The position numbers were made by a program, and so were the translations under genes. The notes beneath the pieces are model-generated. The model worked only from the letters and a program-made list of their open reading frames with translations. It was not told the DNA's origin and ran no database searches. A stretch of 64,000 nucleotides of DNA from Planctomycetota bacterium (GTDB lineage: Bacteria > Planctomycetota > UBA1135 > UBA2386), in contig JADLHO010000065.1 in NCBI GenBank assembly GCA_020848735.1, forward strand, positions 1-64,000, given 5' to 3'. Shown here piece after piece: positions 54,546 through 64,000 of this stretch. The stretch's first letter is position 1, and each line of letters begins with the position of its first letter.

Positions 54546-55856
54546 TCAGGCGTGGGCCTGCCGCACGGGATCGTCCTGCGCGAACTCGGCGTCGAACTCG
54601 TTGGGACCGCGGTTCTCGAGGAGGAGCAGGCCCCACACGGTGACGAACCACTGCAGCTTGTCCATGCGCAGGAAGAAGCTCTCGCTGCGCGCGGCGAGCG
54701 CGATCAGGACGACCGTGCTGGCGAAGATCGCCGCCGCGGCATCGCGACGGCGTGTGCCGCGACGCCCGGCACAACGCTGCCAGAACGAGAGCAGGCGCAG
54801 CGGCACGAGGACGAGGAAGGCGAAGAGGCCGGTCCAGCCGATCTCGACGAGCACGTCGATCCACGAGTTGTGCGCCTGCTTCGGGTTCCAGGTCAGCACG
54901 AGCTCGCGGCCGCGATCCGGGTACCAGAACGCACCGAAGCCGGTGCCGAGCAGCGGCGCATCGTCGGCCTCCTCGAGCACGCGCTCCCAGAGCTGATCGC
55001 GGCCCGAGAGCGAGGCGTCGCGGCCGGTGCTCGAGAAGAACGCCGCGCGCAACTCGTCGGCGCCGATCACCATCGCGATGCCGAAGGCGAAGACGAGGCC
55101 GAGCTGGATGAGTCCGGCGCGGTAGGAGTGGGTCGAGAGCAGCACGAAGACCCCGACGCCGGCGATCGTCGACGTGATCGAGGTCATCGAGTCCGTCTTC
55201 CACAGCGCGGCGAGCATGCCGGCCTGGAGCACCAGCAGCGCCAGGCGGCGGCTCGGCAGCACGGGCTTCACCGCGAGCGAGATCAGCAGCCCGACCTGCA
55301 TGCAGGGACCGAAGACGTTCGGATGGCCGCTGAGCCCGGCGAGGCCGGGACGCCAGGGGATGCTCCAGCAGGCCGGCGACCACACGACCTGCTGCGCGAG
55401 GGAGAGCCACGCGCAGGCGCCGAGCGCGATCGTCACCGTGCGCACGAAGAAGGTCACCGGTCGCGGATGCGAGTCGACGGTCGCGAGCAGCAGGAGGATG
55501 CCGAAGCCGTGCACGAGCGAACGCTTCAGCGTCAGCGAGCGATCGGTCGTCCAGAGCAGCGAGCCGACGAGCAGCAGCGAGAACGCGACCCAGGCGAGGT
55601 GCGCGCCGATGCGCAGTTGGAAGCGGCCCGACTGCATCATCGCGTGCACCGCGAGCAGTCCGCCGAACGTGAAGACCAGCTGCCGGCGCAGGCTGAAGGT
55701 CACGTCCTCGTCGAGCGGGATCGGCTCCCAGGGCATGCGGAAGCCGCCGATCAGGAAGACGAGCCAGAGGACGGAGTACGCGAGGACGACGCGCTCGAGC
55801 AGCGTGCGGCGCTCGTCGCGCACGAGGACGTCCGCGAAGGTCGCCGTCGCCGTCAT
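54546..55856 (-). CDS. O-antigen ligase/polymerase family (Wzy/WaaL-like) membrane protein
   Basis: This 436-residue polytopic protein starts at ATG 55856, overlapping the upstream stop (ATGA). About ten hydrophobic helices are visible. The large periplasmic loop near about 270-335 carries RDQLWERVLEEADDAPLLGTGFGAFW and KQAHNSWIDVLVEIGWTGL, the conserved R...H pattern of Wzy_C ligases and polymerases. It is the last gene of the minus-strand exopolysaccharide operon and probably polymerises the repeat units or ligates the finished chain. Which of the two cannot be told. An acidic C-terminal tail follows the last helix. Confidence 0.85.
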   Translation of the reverse strand: MTATATFADVLVRDERRTLLERVVLAYSVLWLVFLIGGFRMPWEPIPLDEDVTFSLRRQLVFTFGGLLAVHAMMQSGRFQLRIGAHLAWVAFSLLLVGSLLWTTDRSLTLKRSLVHGFGILLLLATVDSHPRPVTFFVRTVTIALGACAWLSLAQQVVWSPACWSIPWRPGLAGLSGHPNVFGPCMQVGLLISLAVKPVLPSRRLALLVLQAGMLAALWKTDSMTSITSTIAGVGVFVLLSTHSYRAGLIQLGLVFAFGIAMVIGADELRAAFFSSTGRDASLSGRDQLWERVLEEADDAPLLGTGFGAFWYPDRGRELVLTWNPKQAHNSWIDVLVEIGWTGLFAFLVLVPLRLLSFWQRCAGRRGTRRRDAAAAIFASTVVLIALAARSESFFLRMDKLQWFVTVWGLLLLENRGPNEFDAEFAQDDPVRQAHA

Positions 55857-57208
55857 GGAGCCGGCGTTCCGACGCGGTCCTCGGCGCCCGCGGCCGCGCG
55901 CGCGCGCTTCCCGTCCCGCGCACGGCGGAGCGACGGGGCGAGCATCCGCGCATGCTGCCGGATCTCCTCGGCGCGTTGCATGAGGTAGGGCTCGGTGGCG
56001 ACCTTGTTCCACTGCTCCCGGAGCATCACGACGACGATGCCGAGGATGAACGCGACGAGCATCGCGGCGCCGATCGTGTCGCGCTTGCTCGGACCGGCGC
56101 GCTCGCGCAGCGGGATCGCCGGCTTGATCACGGTGATGGCGCCCGCGGGCTGGCGCGCGCGGATCTCCCAGAGCTCCGCCTGGCTCTCGAGCGTGCCGGC
56201 GAGGTCGCGGCTGCGGCCGACCTGCTTCTGGAGCGCCTCCATGCGCAGGCGCACCTCCTGCACGCTCACCCGATCGGGACCGAAGCCCGCGTGCGCGCGT
56301 TCCCGGAGCTCCTCGATCTTCCGCGAGGCCTGGGCGATCTGCTCGGCGAGATTGCGTGCGACGTGGTCCTCCTCCGTGAAGGCCTGGAGCCGCTCGAGAC
56401 GCTGCTTCACGAGGACCTCCCTCGCGGTCTCCATCTCGCGCATCATCGAGAGCACGTCGCCGGTCTGCTTCTCGAGAGCGACGATGCCGTGGCCCTCGAC
56501 GTAGCTCGCGAGCGCCTTCTCGTCGCGCTCGAGGCGCGAGCGCGCGGCGACGAGCGCACCCTTGAGGTAGCCGACCTGCTGCTCGAGCATCTGCCGCTCG
56601 ACCGACTTGCTGGCCTCCGCCATCTCGTTGACCATCGCGTTCGCGACGTCGGCCGCGAGCGCGGGGTCCGAGGCGATGACCTCGACGTTGAACATCCCCT
56701 CCTCCGTCCCGGAGATGTTCACGAGGTTGCGCATGCGATGGACCAGCTCGCTCGAGCGCAGGTTGTCCGGCAGGCGGAGGCGCGAGGCGAAGCGCTCGCC
56801 GATCGCGGTCAGCACCGCGTCGCTGCGGAGGATCGACGCGTAGAGGTCGACGTCCGACGGCAGCATCAGGGCACCGGTGTTGCCGCGGTTCGCGATGTCG
56901 CGCGCCGTCTCGATGGACCCCACGGTGACCTCGACGTCGAGGGGCGGCTTCTCGCGCGGCATCAGCACCGCGACGCAGGTCGAGCGGTAGTAGGGCCGCG
57001 TCACGAAGAAGCGCCCGACGCCGAACATGAGCCCGAGCGAGAGGACGATCAGGAAGAGCTGCCAATGGCGCAGCACCGCGGACGTGAGGTCGAGCAGCGG
57101 GGCCTGCCAACCGACGGGCGGACGCGGCGCGACGCCCGCCGCGACGCGCGCCGGCTCCGGCAGACGGTCGGTTCCGACCGGCCCGCGGGTCTCCCCCGGC
57201 GAACTCAA
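55853..57208 (-). CDS. Wzz-like polysaccharide copolymerase (chain length regulator)
   Basis: This 451-residue protein starts with TTG at 57208 in a 4-base overlap with the glycosyltransferase stop. Transmembrane helices at about 50-70 (LFLIVLSLGLMFGVGRFFV) and about 375-395 (TIGAAMLVAFILGIVVVML) flank a long coiled-coil region rich in Leu/Glu/Arg (about 190-345), and the second helix is preceded by VIKPAIPLRERAGPSKR, the typical Wzz proline-rich box. No kinase domain follows, so it is a Wzz/PCP-1 or PCP-2a without kinase. It controls length and export of the polysaccharide together with the Wza-like protein. Confidence 0.88.
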   Translation of the reverse strand: MSSPGETRGPVGTDRLPEPARVAAGVAPRPPVGWQAPLLDLTSAVLRHWQLFLIVLSLGLMFGVGRFFVTRPYYRSTCVAVLMPREKPPLDVEVTVGSIETARDIANRGNTGALMLPSDVDLYASILRSDAVLTAIGERFASRLRLPDNLRSSELVHRMRNLVNISGTEEGMFNVEVIASDPALAADVANAMVNEMAEASKSVERQMLEQQVGYLKGALVAARSRLERDEKALASYVEGHGIVALEKQTGDVLSMMREMETAREVLVKQRLERLQAFTEEDHVARNLAEQIAQASRKIEELRERAHAGFGPDRVSVQEVRLRMEALQKQVGRSRDLAGTLESQAELWEIRARQPAGAITVIKPAIPLRERAGPSKRDTIGAAMLVAFILGIVVVMLREQWNKVATEPYLMQRAEEIRQHARMLAPSLRRARDGKRARAAAGAEDRVGTPAP

Positions 57209-58395
57209 GGGTGCGCCCTCCGCAGGTCCCGCAGGGTCGTGTCCTGGGGCATGGCGCGAGCGACCGCGACGCGGAACGACTCGGCGAGGCGCTCCGGTGT
57301 GAACGCGAGGGCCGCGGTGGCCGCACGCGCACCGAGCGTCGCGAGGTCGTCGCGGTCGAGGGCGGCGGCGAGTCCCGCGAGCAGACTCGCCGGCGACGAC
57401 GGATCGAAGAGCAGGCCGTCGACGCCGTCACGGACGAGGTCGTCCGCGCAGCCCGCGTGGATCGAGCAGAGGGTGGGGACGCCGCAGAGCATCGCCTCCT
57501 GCACGGTCAGGCCCCAGGCATCGGCCAGCGACGGGAACACGTGCAGGTCGGCGCTCGCGTAGTAGGCGGGCACGTCCGCCATCGGGACCCCGGCGATGCG
57601 CACGACGCCGAGCGCGGGCTCCGCGGTCTCGATCAACGGGGCGAGCGGGCCGTCCCCGACGAAGACCAGACGCCAGGCATCGCGCGTCGCCGCGGGGAGT
57701 GCCGCCCAGCCGGCGAGCAGCTCGCGGATGCCCTTGAAGGGCACGAGGCGACCGCAGAAGAGCGCGATGCGACGACCCGCGCCGAGCTCCGCGCGCAGGC
57801 GTGCGACGCTGCCATCCGCGCGCAGGGCGGCGAGGCGCGTGCGCACGAGCTCGACATCGGTCGCATTCGGCGCGTCGACGATGTGATCCGTCGGCACCGC
57901 CGAGGCGAGCAACACGTCGCGGGCCTGACGACCCATGCCCACGACGGCCCGCGCGCGGCCGAGCACCGCCGCGCGCACGCAGCGACGCAGCCGTCCGCCG
58001 GCGCTGCCCATCGCGCGGCTCTGGTACGACCACACCACGTACGGCACGCGATGCACGCGGCACCAGAGCGTGGCGAGCAGGCTGCGCGGACCGAGCTCGT
58101 GCGTGATGACCACGTCGGGACGGAAGCGCGAGAGATCGCGCCAGAGCCCGACCGGCACGTGGGTCGTCACGACCTGTTCGACGCGCACGGGCTCATGGCT
58201 CACGTGGGCGCGGCGGAAGCGCAGCGTGCGCGACTCGACGACGTCGACGCCGTCGCACGCGCCGTCCCAGCGGCGGTCGAACTCCGTGCGCGCGTTCACG
58301 AGGACGCGGAACTCCCATCCCGGCGTCCTGGCGAGCGAGCGGAAGACGGGTGCGCGGTAGGGGCTGATGACGTTCGTGAGGAACGCGACCCTCAT
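57205..58395 (-). CDS. Glycosyltransferase family 4 (GT-B) protein
   Basis: This 396-residue protein starts at ATG 58395 in a 4-base overlap with the upstream fusion gene; the track start lies within that gene. The N-terminal domain opens with RVAFLTNVISPYRAPVFRSLA. The C-terminal domain has FCGRLVPFKGIRELL, the donor-site SLADAWGLTVQEAMLCGVPT in place of EGFG..E and a DGLLFDP end. This is the retaining GT4 layout. It adds one sugar of the repeat unit on the cytoplasmic face. The donor sugar cannot be told from sequence. Confidence 0.88.
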   Translation of the reverse strand: MRVAFLTNVISPYRAPVFRSLARTPGWEFRVLVNARTEFDRRWDGACDGVDVVESRTLRFRRAHVSHEPVRVEQVVTTHVPVGLWRDLSRFRPDVVITHELGPRSLLATLWCRVHRVPYVVWSYQSRAMGSAGGRLRRCVRAAVLGRARAVVGMGRQARDVLLASAVPTDHIVDAPNATDVELVRTRLAALRADGSVARLRAELGAGRRIALFCGRLVPFKGIRELLAGWAALPAATRDAWRLVFVGDGPLAPLIETAEPALGVVRIAGVPMADVPAYYASADLHVFPSLADAWGLTVQEAMLCGVPTLCSIHAGCADDLVRDGVDGLLFDPSSPASLLAGLAAALDRDDLATLGARAATAALAFTPERLAESFRVAVARAMPQDTTLRDLRRAHP

Positions 58396-61154
58396 CCGCC
58401 GCCTCCGCGGTCCGCGGGGCCCGTCGGGTCCGGTCTGGTCGACGTGCGCTGCCGTTCGTCGAGGGTGCCGGCGCTGCGGTAGCCGCGCGCGTTCTCGAGG
58501 ACCTGCGGCCGCAGCCACCCCACGAGCCCGCCGCCCGCGAGCGCGAGGCCCTGCAGCGCACCGAAGAGGTGCTCGGGCCGACCACGCAACGCCGCGGGGA
58601 TCGCGCAGAGCGCGATGGGCACGCCGACCGCGATGCGCTTGAGGAAGCGGGCGAGCGGCGCGAACTTGCCGCGCTCGCTCGCGACGAGCCGCTCGTAGTT
58701 GCCGCCGCCGCGCCACGCACGCCGCAGGATCCATCCGAGCGTGCACTGCGCCGCGTTCGCGATCTCGCGCACCGCCGACGCCGGCGCGGCGCGGAAGCGA
58801 CCGCCGGCCGCGGCGATGCGACGGAAGAGATCGGTGTCCTCACCGCCCGAGCGGCCGAAGCGCGCGTCGAAGCGGTAGCCGTACTCGAAGAACCACACGC
58901 CGTCGACGAGCGTGTTCGAGGTGCGCGTGCGCTCCCAGCCGAGGTCGAGGTTCTCGGGACCCGCGGGCTTCTCGTGGAAGCCGCCGCGACGCACCCAGCC
59001 CGGTGCCTCGGGCGGGAGGATCGACTCGACGCGGCCGAACGCCGCATCGGCGCGCCCGGCCTGCATCGCATCCCAGAGCCCGCGCAACCACCAGCGATCG
59101 GCGCGCTCGTCGTCGTCGATGAACGCGACGTACCGCGCGGGACCGAACTCGAGCGCGCGATTGCGCGCGAGGGCGATGCTGCGCTCCGGCTCGACCGCAT
59201 ACCGCACGACGAAGCGCGGCGCGGCCTCGGCCGCGAAGGTGAGGACGGCGGCCTCTGCGGTCCGTTCGACGTCGTTGTCGACGACGCGGACCTCGACGCT
59301 GCGCACCCCCGGGGGGAGCTCGACCTCGAGCAGGCTCGCGAGCGTGCCCTTGAGGAGCTGCGGACGGCGGTAGCTCGCGATGCAGATCGCGAGATCGGCG
59401 CCGCCCGGCTTGGGCACCATGGCGTGCTCGGGTCTCGGACGTTGCGTGCGCGTCGTCGTCATGCGGGTGGAGTCGGTATCGGCGCCGAGTTCGACGCGGT
59501 AGCGGCGGCGGAGCAACCAGTGCTTCGCGAGCTGCACCGCGAGGAGCGTGACGAAGATCGGGTTGGTCGTCGCGTAGCGGCGGAAGAGCCGACGCGGTTC
59601 GCAGAGCAGTCGGAAGAACCACTCCATCCCGATCGACTGCAGCCAGGCGGGCGCCTGGCGCACCGCTCCGGCGTGGAAGTCGAATGCGGCGCCGACGCCG
59701 AGCATGACGCCCGGCACGCGCCCGCTGTGGTCTGCCATCCAGCGCTCCTGCTTCGGGCACCCGAGCCCCACGAGGATGAGGTCGGGCTGCAGCGCCGCGA
59801 GCCGTTTGGTCGTCGCGTCGTCCTCCTCCGGCGAGAGCGTGCGGAACGGCGGCGAGATCGCGGCCGCGATCTCGAGCTCGGGGAAGCGCTTCTCGAGGTT
59901 CTCGACGAGCCGCTCGAGGCGGTCGGAGCGACCGCCGTAGAGCACGACGCGCCAGCCGCGCTGCTCGGCGCGGGCGAGCGCGTGGAGCATCGTCGTCGGC
60001 CCGTAGACCCGCGACGCGTTGCGGTGGCCGAGGAGCTTCTGCGCCCACACGATCGGCATCCCGTCGGCGACGCAGAGCCCTGCGCCGCGGAGCGCCTCCT
60101 TGTGCGAGGGCCCGCGCGCACCCTCGACGACGCTGTGCACCGGGCAGAACGCGACGTAGCGCGGCTTGCCGCCCTCGATCCACGCATCGATCCGATCGAC
60201 CACCTCGTTCATCGCGAGATCGGCGATCGGGATGCCGAGCACCTCGGTGACGGTCGCGGCCCCGGCGCGCGGCTCCGGGCGTGGCGTTCCCCGCAGGACG
60301 CGCACGAACGAGCGCATCAGGAACACGAACGACATCAGCAGGACGACGAGGTCGTAGCCGAAGCACTTGCGGCGGATGTAGTGGAGCTCCGCCTCGAAGC
60401 GTTCGTGCCAATCCTCGACGAGGTCGGCGCCGACGCGATTGTCGACCACCGCGACCTGCGCGAGGCTCGTGAGGCCGGGCTTCACGCGGTTGCGCTCGAC
60501 GAAGCCCTGGATCTGCGTGCGGAGGCGATCCTCGAGCGCGATCGGGATCGGCCGCGGTCCGACGACCTCCATCTCGCCGCGGACGACGTTCCAGAGCTGC
60601 GGCAGCTCGTCGATCTTGAGCTGTCGCAGGAGGCGACCGATGCGCGTGATCTGCGGGTCCTGCTTCGTCACACCGAGCGCCGTCTTCTGCTCGGCACCGA
60701 CGCAGAGCGTCCGCACCTTGTAGATCGTGAACGGGCGCCCACCCTGGCCGCGGCGCGTCTGACGGAAGAAGAAGGGCCCGGGCGACGTGATCTTCACCGC
60801 GAGCCACACGAGCGGCACGAGCGGGAGGAGCAGTGCCGTCGCGACCACGGCGGCGAACCGCTGCGCCGCGCTCCAGAGGATCGGCGAGTGGATCGGCGAG
60901 AGGTCGCGCAACTCGGCGTCGGTGCGGCTTGTGGTCTCCTCGCGGCGCTGGTTGCGCGGCGCGGGACCGGCGCGCATGAGCGCGGCGAGGCGCTCGCCGC
61001 TCGAACGCGCCTCGTCGCGCGGGTCGATCGCCGGTGAGCCGAGCGTCGCGTGCACGTCGACGCCGTGCGACATGAGGGTCTCCAGCGGCGTCCCGACGAT
61101 GGTGCCCGCCGTCGCCGGATCGCTCGTCCACGGGTGCCGCTGTTCGCCGGTCAT
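58392..61154 (-). CDS. Three-domain fusion: initiating sugar transferase, WecG/TagA transferase, GT2 glycosyltransferase
   Basis: This 920-residue protein has three complete enzyme domains in one open frame. Residues 85-290: polyprenyl-phosphate sugar transferase (WcaJ/WbaP C-terminal type) with a membrane helix at 100-121, FTIYKVRTL, LKIDELPQLWNV and EMEVVGPRPIP. Residues 300-545: WecG/TagA/CpsF transferase with VADGMPIVW, LYGGRSDR, LVGLGCPKQERWM and GAAFDFHAGAVRQAP. Residues about 583-850: GT2 with ICIASYRRPQL and AFIDDDERADRWW. Two hydrophobic helices follow near the end. The protein could start and extend the lipid-linked unit by itself. An internal ATG at 59462 could yield a separate GT2 product. 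Confidence 0.87.
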   Translation of the reverse strand: MTGEQRHPWTSDPATAGTIVGTPLETLMSHGVDVHATLGSPAIDPRDEARSSGERLAALMRAGPAPRNQRREETTSRTDAELRDLSPIHSPILWSAAQRFAAVVATALLLPLVPLVWLAVKITSPGPFFFRQTRRGQGGRPFTIYKVRTLCVGAEQKTALGVTKQDPQITRIGRLLRQLKIDELPQLWNVVRGEMEVVGPRPIPIALEDRLRTQIQGFVERNRVKPGLTSLAQVAVVDNRVGADLVEDWHERFEAELHYIRRKCFGYDLVVLLMSFVFLMRSFVRVLRGTPRPEPRAGAATVTEVLGIPIADLAMNEVVDRIDAWIEGGKPRYVAFCPVHSVVEGARGPSHKEALRGAGLCVADGMPIVWAQKLLGHRNASRVYGPTTMLHALARAEQRGWRVVLYGGRSDRLERLVENLEKRFPELEIAAAISPPFRTLSPEEDDATTKRLAALQPDLILVGLGCPKQERWMADHSGRVPGVMLGVGAAFDFHAGAVRQAPAWLQSIGMEWFFRLLCEPRRLFRRYATTNPIFVTLLAVQLAKHWLLRRRYRVELGADTDSTRMTTTRTQRPRPEHAMVPKPGGADLAICIASYRRPQLLKGTLASLLEVELPPGVRSVEVRVVDNDVERTAEAAVLTFAAEAAPRFVVRYAVEPERSIALARNRALEFGPARYVAFIDDDERADRWWLRGLWDAMQAGRADAAFGRVESILPPEAPGWVRRGGFHEKPAGPENLDLGWERTRTSNTLVDGVWFFEYGYRFDARFGRSGGEDTDLFRRIAAAGGRFRAAPASAVREIANAAQCTLGWILRRAWRGGGNYERLVASERGKFAPLARFLKRIAVGVPIALCAIPAALRGRPEHLFGALQGLALAGGGLVGWLRPQVLENARGYRSAGTLDERQRTSTRPDPTGPADRGGGG

Positions 61155-61179: not shown

Positions 61180-61638
61180 TCAGCTGAGTTCCTGGCGGTC
61201 CATGCGACGGTTCCACATCCGCACGAGGTCCGCCATCGAGCGCATCACGCCGAGCAGGCCGCGGGTCTCGGGGGCTTCCGCGCGGCGTGAGAGGAAGGCG
61301 CGGATGCGGACGTCGAGCGCCTCGACGTCGCCCGGCACCGATTCGTCGACGAGCGCGCCCGCGCCCGCGTTGACGACCTCCTTGAGGGCCGCGCGATCGA
61401 GGCCATCGACGATGGCGAGGATCAACGCGGTGGGGGTCTCCGCGTGCAGCGTGCGCACCACGTCGACTCCGAGCCGTCGGCAATCGACGAGGAACACGTC
61501 GAAGTCGTGCCCGTACGCGCTGGGCTCATCGGTGGTGACGACCACCATCCCGGGGAACGACGATCGCAGGCGCTCCGCGAGCGCACGGGCGCCCGTCGGT
61601 TCGTCGTGGACCACCAAGCTGCGGATCTCGTGGAGCAT
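61180..61638 (-). CDS. Receiver-like (pseudo-receiver) response regulator
   Basis: This 152-residue protein starts at ATG 61638; the track start adds shadow sequence. It reads LVVHDEPTGARALAERL, then DVFLVDCRRLG with the Asp where the phospho-acceptor sits, then ALILAIVDG and a terminal strand ALVDES where receivers normally have the Lys-Pro motif. The acidic pair is reduced to one residue and the Lys is missing, so normal phosphotransfer is doubtful. A helical tail of about 35 residues follows. It is first in the exopolysaccharide operon, 25 bases before the fusion gene, and may regulate it. Confidence 0.65.
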   Translation of the reverse strand: MLHEIRSLVVHDEPTGARALAERLRSSFPGMVVVTTDEPSAYGHDFDVFLVDCRRLGVDVVRTLHAETPTALILAIVDGLDRAALKEVVNAGAGALVDESVPGDVEALDVRIRAFLSRRAEAPETRGLLGVMRSMADLVRMWNRRMDRQELS

Positions 61639-62000: not shown

Positions 62001-64000
62001 GTGCGAGTCCCGAACCGACAGCTCATCGCCGGCGGCCTGGTCCTCTGCGGACTCGGCGGCTTCCTCGTCGCGTGCAAGAGTGCGACGGGTTCGACCGGGT
62101 TCGACCCGATCGCCCCGACCAATCCGCGACCCGCCTGGGTGACGAAGCTCGAGGAGCGCGTGCAACCGGTGCCTCCCGAGTCGCAGCCCGACGGCGCGCG
62201 GCTGTCCACGCCGACGGCCTGGCCGCCGACGGCGAGCGGCGTGGCGCGGGGGGTGCCCCACGGCTTCGCGACCTCGAAGGACGCGGCGGATGCCGCGGCG
62301 GCGAAGGCTGCGGCGGGCGATGCCGGCGCGGAGCGGAGCGCCGCGGCGGAGGCCGGCGCGCCGGCCGCGGCCCCGCGCGACCCGCGCAACGTCCACGAGC
62401 AGCTCGAGGGTGGCGTCGTCGTGCACGTCCACAACGTGGAGTCCGATGCCCCGGTCGAGCAGGGTCAGGACCCGCCCTCGCCGCTCGAACGCCTCTACGC
62501 CGGCGACTTCGCGACGACCTCGACGAAGGGCCTGCGGCAGTTCGGCTACGAGTTCTTCGAACGCGACCTCGGGACCGGCGGGCCGTCGAGCATCTCCGAG
62601 GATCACATCGTGCTGCCCGGCGACGAACTGCGCGTCGTGATGACGGGCACGTTCAAGGACCACATCTTCGGCACCGTCGAACCCGACGGCACGCTCGTCG
62701 TGCCCGAGGCCGGCTCGGTGATCGTGGCGGGCCGCAAGCTCGGCGAACTCGCCGACCTCATCAAGCGACAGATCGAGGAGCGCGCCCATCGCCGTGACTT
62801 CAACGTCGACGTGTCTCCCGGCCGCCTGCGCGGCTTCCGCGTGCACGTGGTCGGCGAGGTCGAGTCGCCCGGCATGGTCGAGGTCGCGGGTCGCGCGACC
62901 GTCCTCACCGCGCTCGCCGCGGCGAAGGGGCCGCGCAAGACCGGCTCGCTGCGCGCGGTGGAGGTGCGTCGCGAGGGGCGTCGCGTCGCGGTGATCGATC
63001 TCTACGAGTTCCTGCTCACCGGCGAGACCACGGGTCTCGAGGCCCTGCGCGGCGACGACGTGGTCTACGTCCCGTCGATCGGTCCGACCCTGGCCGTCGT
63101 CGGCGCGGTGCAACGGCCCGGGATCTACGAGGTGAGTCGGGACGCGACCGTGCGCGAGGCGCTGAGGCTCGCGGGCGGGCTCACCCCGTTCACGTTCATG
63201 CCGGGCGCCCAGATCGAACGCACGGTCGAGGGGCGTGGTCGCGCGCGCGTCGACGTCGGCCTCGACGAGGCGGGACTCGAGACGCGCATGGGCAATGGCG
63301 AGGTGTTGCTCGTCGGGGCGATCGACGCGGAGCGTCAGCCCTCGGTCGCGGTCGAGGGCCAGGTCGTGAGGCCGGGCTCGTATCCGTACCGCGAGCGGAT
63401 GACGGTCGGCGATCTCCTGCGCTCGGCCGACGGACTCACCATCGATGCCTTCATGCCGCAGGCCTTCCTCTCGCGGCAGATCGGCGAGCCGGGCAACGTG
63501 ACGATCGTCCCGGAGCGCGAGGCGATGCAGACCTCGCGCCGTGTGCTCGTCATCGACCTCGAGCGTGCGCTCGCGGGCGACCGTGAGCACGATCTGGAGC
63601 TGCGTCCGCTGGATCACCTGCTCGTCCGTGCCAGGCGCGATGCGGCGGCGACGCCGATCGTCGAGGTGATCGGCGGCGTGCGCGAGCCGGGCACCTACGA
63701 GCTCACGGCGGGGCTCACCGTCGCCCAGCTCGTGGCGATGGCCGGGAACGTCGTCCCCGAGGCGTACTACGACGAGGCGGAGTTGATCCGTCGCGCGTAC
63801 GACCCGTCGTCGCGCGGGCTCAGCGTGCAGCGCTACCGCTTCGATCTCGGCAAGGCGCTCCGCGAGGGCGGGGACGCCGACCCGCAGCTCGCGAACGGCG
63901 ACCAGCTCGTCGTGCGCACGCTGCACAGCGAACAGGTCCGCGTCCGGATCACCGGTCAGGTGCGCTTCCCCGGCGAGTATCCGTTCGCACGGGGGACGCG
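62001..64000 (+). CDS. Wza-like polysaccharide export lipoprotein with SLBB domains (3' end missing)
   Basis: The frame opens at GTG 62001 and has no stop before the window end (666 codons), so the track does not list it. The signal ends in the lipobox LVAC. After an Ala/Pro-rich linker, the polysaccharide-export domain (about 195-300) has LPGDELRVVMTG, GTVEPDGTLVVPEAGSV and GRKLGELADLIKRQIEE. SLBB-type units follow: VVGEVESPGMVEV, VVGAVQRPGIYEVS, VEGQVVRPGSYPY, VIGGVREPGTYELT and ITGQVRFPGEYPF, five so far. It should form the outer-membrane channel exporting the polysaccharide made by the divergent operon. Confidence 0.9.
   Translation, partial: MRVPNRQLIAGGLVLCGLGGFLVACKSATGSTGFDPIAPTNPRPAWVTKLEERVQPVPPESQPDGARLSTPTAWPPTASGVARGVPHGFATSKDAADAAAAKAAAGDAGAERSAAAEAGAPAAAPRDPRNVHEQLEGGVVVHVHNVESDAPVEQGQDPPSPLERLYAGDFATTSTKGLRQFGYEFFERDLGTGGPSSISEDHIVLPGDELRVVMTGTFKDHIFGTVEPDGTLVVPEAGSVIVAGRKLGELADLIKRQIEERAHRRDFNVDVSPGRLRGFRVHVVGEVESPGMVEVAGRATVLTALAAAKGPRKTGSLRAVEVRREGRRVAVIDLYEFLLTGETTGLEALRGDDVVYVPSIGPTLAVVGAVQRPGIYEVSRDATVREALRLAGGLTPFTFMPGAQIERTVEGRGRARVDVGLDEAGLETRMGNGEVLLVGAIDAERQPSVAVEGQVVRPGSYPYRERMTVGDLLRSADGLTIDAFMPQAFLSRQIGEPGNVTIVPEREAMQTSRRVLVIDLERALAGDREHDLELRPLDHLLVRARRDAAATPIVEVIGGVREPGTYELTAGLTVAQLVAMAGNVVPEAYYDEAELIRRAYDPSSRGLSVQRYRFDLGKALREGGDADPQLANGDQLVVRTLHSEQVRVRITGQVRFPGEYPFARGT

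Follow-up and report, generated by a model that had tools for sequence, protein, structure and literature searches.

An open reading frame for three glycosyltransferase-type enzymes

Does one gene of this locus encode three glycosyltransferase-type enzymes in a single chain, and if so, how did that chain come about? The stretch of DNA analysed here (64,000 nucleotides; "the window") is part of the 6.4 Mb draft genome of an uncultured planctomycete, a metagenome assembly whose named close relatives are Planctomycetota. An earlier note on it had claimed three fused enzymes in one 920-residue frame without a stop. The frame indeed proved continuous, and it lies on the minus strand, which that note had not given: it runs from ATG 61154 to TGA 58392 (58392..61154) with zero internal stops, and joins a monotopic phosphoglycosyl transferase (PGT), a WecG/TagA/CpsF domain and a GT2 glycosyltransferase. 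In the domain searches that had been suggested, PF02397, PF03808 and PF00535 (GT2) all scored above their curated cut-offs, with family-level agreement between NCBIfam and Pfam. Since ATG 61154 is not preceded by a Shine-Dalgarno sequence, the real start may be residue 28 (ATG 61073), giving a protein of 893 aa; either choice includes all three domains.

A chance open frame in high-GC DNA is ruled out by the domain scores, the codon-position GC and purifying selection. Around the WecG-GT2 junction, third-position GC is 0.83-0.97 in the frame of the ORF, versus 0.37-0.83 in the other two frames. Only one other genome of the genus is available (G001, with locus L005; hereafter the sister), an independent assembly with about 81% amino acid identity. 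Between the window and the sister, dN/dS is 0.27 for the PGT, 0.18 for WecG and 0.14 for GT2; purifying selection thus acts on all three domains.

Catalytic motifs and predicted folds of the three domains

The earlier note had also stated that each domain carries its own catalytic motifs, and key residues were found in all three. Two separate structural models were made, one for PGT-WecG and one for GT2; a joint alignment of 67 rows had misplaced GT2 rows. The PGT domain (residues 92-282; 60309..60881, minus strand, as for all features of the fused gene) matches PF02397 over residues 99-278 with 166.3 bits versus a cut-off of 27, and aligns with PglC and WbaP. Its catalytic Asp182-Glu183 pair, encoded at 60606-60611, and its GPRP motif (VVGPRP at 197) both align with PglC. 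The PGT-WecG model has a pLDDT of 91.9 and a TM score of 0.70-0.75 to PglC; in this predicted structure, broken helices are seen at residues 92-109 and 112-123, which may correspond to the single re-entrant membrane helix of monotopic PGTs.

The WecG/TagA/CpsF (GT26) domain with its C-terminal appendage occupies residues 304-552 (59499..60245). PF03808 matches residues 358-527 with 195 bits (cut-off 27.4), and the modelled fold is TagA-like, with a TM score of about 0.93. In the alignment to TagA (7mpk), D364 is the equivalent of Asp65, and the appendage arginines R515, R522 and R525 are those of Arg214, Arg221 and Arg224; Q469 and E470 are also present. The roles of the TagA residues are those given in PMC6493773, with Arg214 and Arg224 lying outside the tests of that paper. 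Two sugar-pocket residues, Thr37 and Asn39, are replaced by F336 and P338 (60141-60149). We therefore do not assign this domain to TagA proper, a ManNAc transferase: the sugar used is probably a different one, and the acceptor may differ as well. Most of the fused relatives have CPVHS instead of CNVHS, with the proline shared by L006, L086 and L007; this proline in place of the TagA asparagine may be a sign of a different sugar specificity.

A second linker, residues 553-586 (59397..59498), spans the fusion point and is in frame in the sister too. Model confidence is low there, so the stretch just before GT2 is probably flexible. The GT2 catalytic domain that follows (residues 587-820; 58695..59396) matches PF00535 over residues 590-723 with 44.9 bits versus a cut-off of 23.3. 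Its DxD-type motif is DDDE at 680-683, of which DDD is invariant in 9/9 sequences, and the GT2 model (pLDDT 86.4) matches GT-A enzymes. The model ends in partly hydrophobic helices (residues 806-881; 58512..58739), with hydropathy peaks at about 834-881, for which membrane contact is probable.

The PGT-WecG half is shared with relatives

We looked for the same fusion in related genomes, as the earlier note had proposed, with a divided outcome: the PGT-WecG half is common to several genera, but in L006 and L086 (G018) GT2 has a gene of its own, and in the sister its frame is broken. Besides the window, five further loci (L005, L006, L007, L008 and L086) have PGT and WecG in a single open frame, and no GT2 match was found after PGT-WecG in L008. 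The first approximately 80 residues in L006 were left out of the conservation analysis, as that stretch partly overlaps a neighbouring small gene. In a WecG tree, the WecG parts of the fused loci and of the window form one clade (100/99); in the PGT tree the grouping is less clear-cut, as unfused PGTs fall between the fused ones. The PGT-WecG fusion evidently predates the addition of GT2. Apart from the window and the sister, the three-domain fusion was not found in the genomes searched, 154 from the class and 392 from the phylum. The best 80 loci from 84,980 species' genomes, retrieved with short peptide patterns that reach close relatives only, included no other three-domain ORF, and plasmid records had no place covering 80% of the query. 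Convergent fusions in other phyla are possible.

Some neighbouring arrangements deserve mention in their own right. L007:7977-10205 (G152:C143) encodes two tandem PF02397 domains and WecG in one frame, 743 aa from its ATG, with the DELPQL motif in both PGT copies. An open frame of 487 aa with a diverged PGT-like part and WecG (L097:1165-2625, minus strand; G093:C94) is a weak case; its PGT part has no DELPQL motif (ALPRLENV is found there), and the protein may combine an inactive PGT with WecG. In L125 (G467:C8), PGT and WecG are in the same frame with only a TGA and a short spacer between them, resembling a not-yet-fused arrangement. Other phyla also gave apparent PGT-WecG matches (e.g. L036, L039, L059 and L084), which were rejected because the two domains are not in one open frame.

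A relic gene overlap at the WecG-GT2 junction

In L006 and L086, where GT2 is a gene of its own, its ATG and the WecG stop overlap in the four letters ATGA, and a ribosome-binding site lies in front of the ATG. The window and the sister have kept this ATGA (59459..59462 in the window), but here the WecG frame is that of the ATG, which has become residue 565, so that the TGA is out of frame and unread and GT2 is fused. The fusion probably formed in two steps, in which an older PGT-WecG join would have been followed, in this genus, by the joining of GT2; in the second step, the tail of WecG would have changed frame right before the ATGA overlap. On the simplest reading, the WecG-GT2 join is older than the split of the window and sister species. 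The direction, from separate to fused, is suggested by the two more distant relatives, L006 and L086.

The earlier note had taken the ATG at 59462 as a hint that a shorter GT2 product may also be made. That codon exists and appears to be the ancestral GT2 start, retained in the sister, and one could imagine two products, a long fusion and a free GT2 starting at residue 565, with GT2 mainly working as the free enzyme. Initiation of this kind is conceivable here, given that the start of the long form also has no Shine-Dalgarno sequence. However, calculated Shine-Dalgarno pairing at the GT2 ATG is 0.1 kcal/mol in the window and -2.5 kcal/mol in the sister, no better than for arbitrary ATGs (median -3.0 kcal/mol), versus -5.9 and -9.6 kcal/mol in L006 and L086, where GT2 is separate; for the GT4 starts in the window, L005 and L006, the values are -9.5 to -12.6 kcal/mol. 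The loss of the ribosome-binding site in both genomes argues against a separate GT2 product, and we consider the two-product alternative unlikely.

The broken GT2 frame of the sister genome

Relative to the window, L005 has a 5-base deletion near codon 608 (around L005 9786) beyond which GT2 continues in another frame; the genome of the window is therefore the one genome in which an unbroken three-enzyme ORF is documented. Past the deletion, the catalytic part of the sister GT2 is 87% identical to that of the window, with a dN/dS of 0.14, similar to WecG and the PGT. Because GT2 beyond the deletion is conserved in this way, the deletion would be either a very recent mutation or an assembly error.

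The broken frame might also be taken to mean that GT2 is on its way out, i.e., that the cell tolerates an accidental fusion whose GT2 part it can do without or has a substitute for, with the PGT-WecG half as the working enzyme. G152 would fit this, since a GT4 directly follows its PGT-PGT-WecG chain and its GT2 relative is on another contig. Yet in the comparison of the two species GT2 is under as much constraint as WecG, the motifs of the window's GT2 are intact, and a second GT2 of the same kind was not found in the genome; we regard this explanation as improbable, more so than a second product. An indel error fusing genes that truly overlap as in L006 is very improbable despite the draft metagenome assembly and the frame problem nearby in the sister, since codon-position GC backs the frame throughout and the junction is in frame in both of the separate assemblies, which differ by an indel of exactly 3 bases directly before it, so that the junction is neither a chance frame nor a one-off error.

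The fused gene and its operon

The stop of the fused gene overlaps, again as ATGA, the ATG of a GT4-type glycosyltransferase (57205..58395, minus strand; PF00534/PF13692). This is followed on the same strand by a Wzz-like chain-length protein (55853..57208; PF02706, slightly below cut-off) and a Wzy/O-antigen-ligase type protein (54582..55856, start approximate; PF04932). Directly upstream of the PGT gene is a small protein (61180..61602, minus strand, start not fixed) with no Pfam match, conserved in L005, L006 and L086; by eye, its sequence is receiver-like. A divergent Wza-like polysaccharide export protein with PF02563 and SLBB domains runs off the window (62001..64000, plus strand), and a GDP-mannose 4,6-dehydratase comes after it, beyond the window. 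A flippase (Wzx) was not found adjoining the locus, and candidates are present on other contigs of the genome. L005 and L006 have the same gene order, as does L086 up to the end of that short locus. Together, these genes resemble a locus for a Wzy-type polysaccharide.

We favour a three-enzyme fusion that heads a Wzy-type exopolysaccharide operon and was formed in two steps, a reading to which we assign a probability of roughly 0.6. The PGT domain would transfer the first sugar phosphate to a polyprenyl phosphate carrier and the WecG/TagA domain would add the second sugar; GT2, tethered by a flexible linker and ending in hydrophobic helices of its own, would attach another sugar, probably the third. 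The GT4, encoded by its own gene, would follow, and the Wzz-, Wzy- and Wza-like proteins would serve length control, polymerisation and export. Enzymes of the WecG family are believed to extend a lipid-linked monosaccharide by the second sugar (PMC11340318; PMC6493773). Family knowledge thus suggests that the PGT-WecG chain covers steps one and two, and gene order alone points to GT2 as step three. The families together with the operon order make it likely that the fused protein performs the first three lipid-linked steps; the activities, the identities of the sugars, the order of reactions and production of the full-length protein are what we infer here.

In lipid-linked glycan assembly, the enzymes are believed to act side by side at the membrane, and joining them would keep them together there. 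Whether the joining goes as far as a three-step assembly line, one membrane-bound chain along which the lipid-linked sugar is passed without release, is doubtful, and we offer it as a tentative idea; such a protein would be a trifunctional enzyme headed by a PGT. A natural chain that joins the first steps in gene order would be a ready construct to test the hand-over of intermediates. The relatives keep the intermediate stages, from PGT-WecG with an overlapping GT2 gene to the full fusion with its relic ATGA, which makes this a clean case of tightly overlapping genes turned into one gene. The fusion also ties PGT, GT26 and GT2 to one pathway and so helps the annotation of planctomycete polysaccharide clusters.

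Comparison with known systems

A survey of PGT fusions that appeared in PNAS in 2021 reportedly found fusions to glycosyltransferases to be common. Our literature searches, made outside that survey's list of types, found no description of a PGT-WecG-GT2 architecture. What we judge to be new is that one chain unites three enzymes, each with a different fold, and that the way in which the third was joined on is still well recorded. The fusion is real, but it departs modestly from fusion enzymes of a sort already known. Proteins in which a PGT core is joined to another functional domain form an established class, the bifunctional monotopic phosphoglycosyl transferases or Bi-PGTs (O'Toole, Imperiali and Allen 2021, as summarised in PMC10942596), and the protein described here, with WecG and GT2 domains in frame with its PGT core, belongs with them. 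As far as that summary describes the class, the likeness lies in a monotopic PGT core joined to an enzyme of the same pathway, and the difference in that the PGT of the window carries two glycosyltransferases of different folds, making three enzymes in all.

The nearest counterparts are the PGT-WecG proteins of L006, L008 and L086, which have the same two halves in one frame; L006 and L086 also share the operon and gene order, but with GT2 as a separate gene in ATGA overlap. TagA/TarA (GT26) of wall teichoic acid synthesis (PMC6493773) resembles the central domain in its fold, the equivalents of Asp65 and Arg214/221/224 and the C-terminal appendage; it differs in that the window has Phe/Pro for Thr37/Asn39, has PGT and GT2 joined on, and belongs to a different pathway. 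In the Caulobacter holdfast system (PMC11340318), HfsE and HfsJ likewise represent an initiating transferase and a WecG-family enzyme that act in succession on the lipid carrier, but these are encoded by separate, unfused genes.
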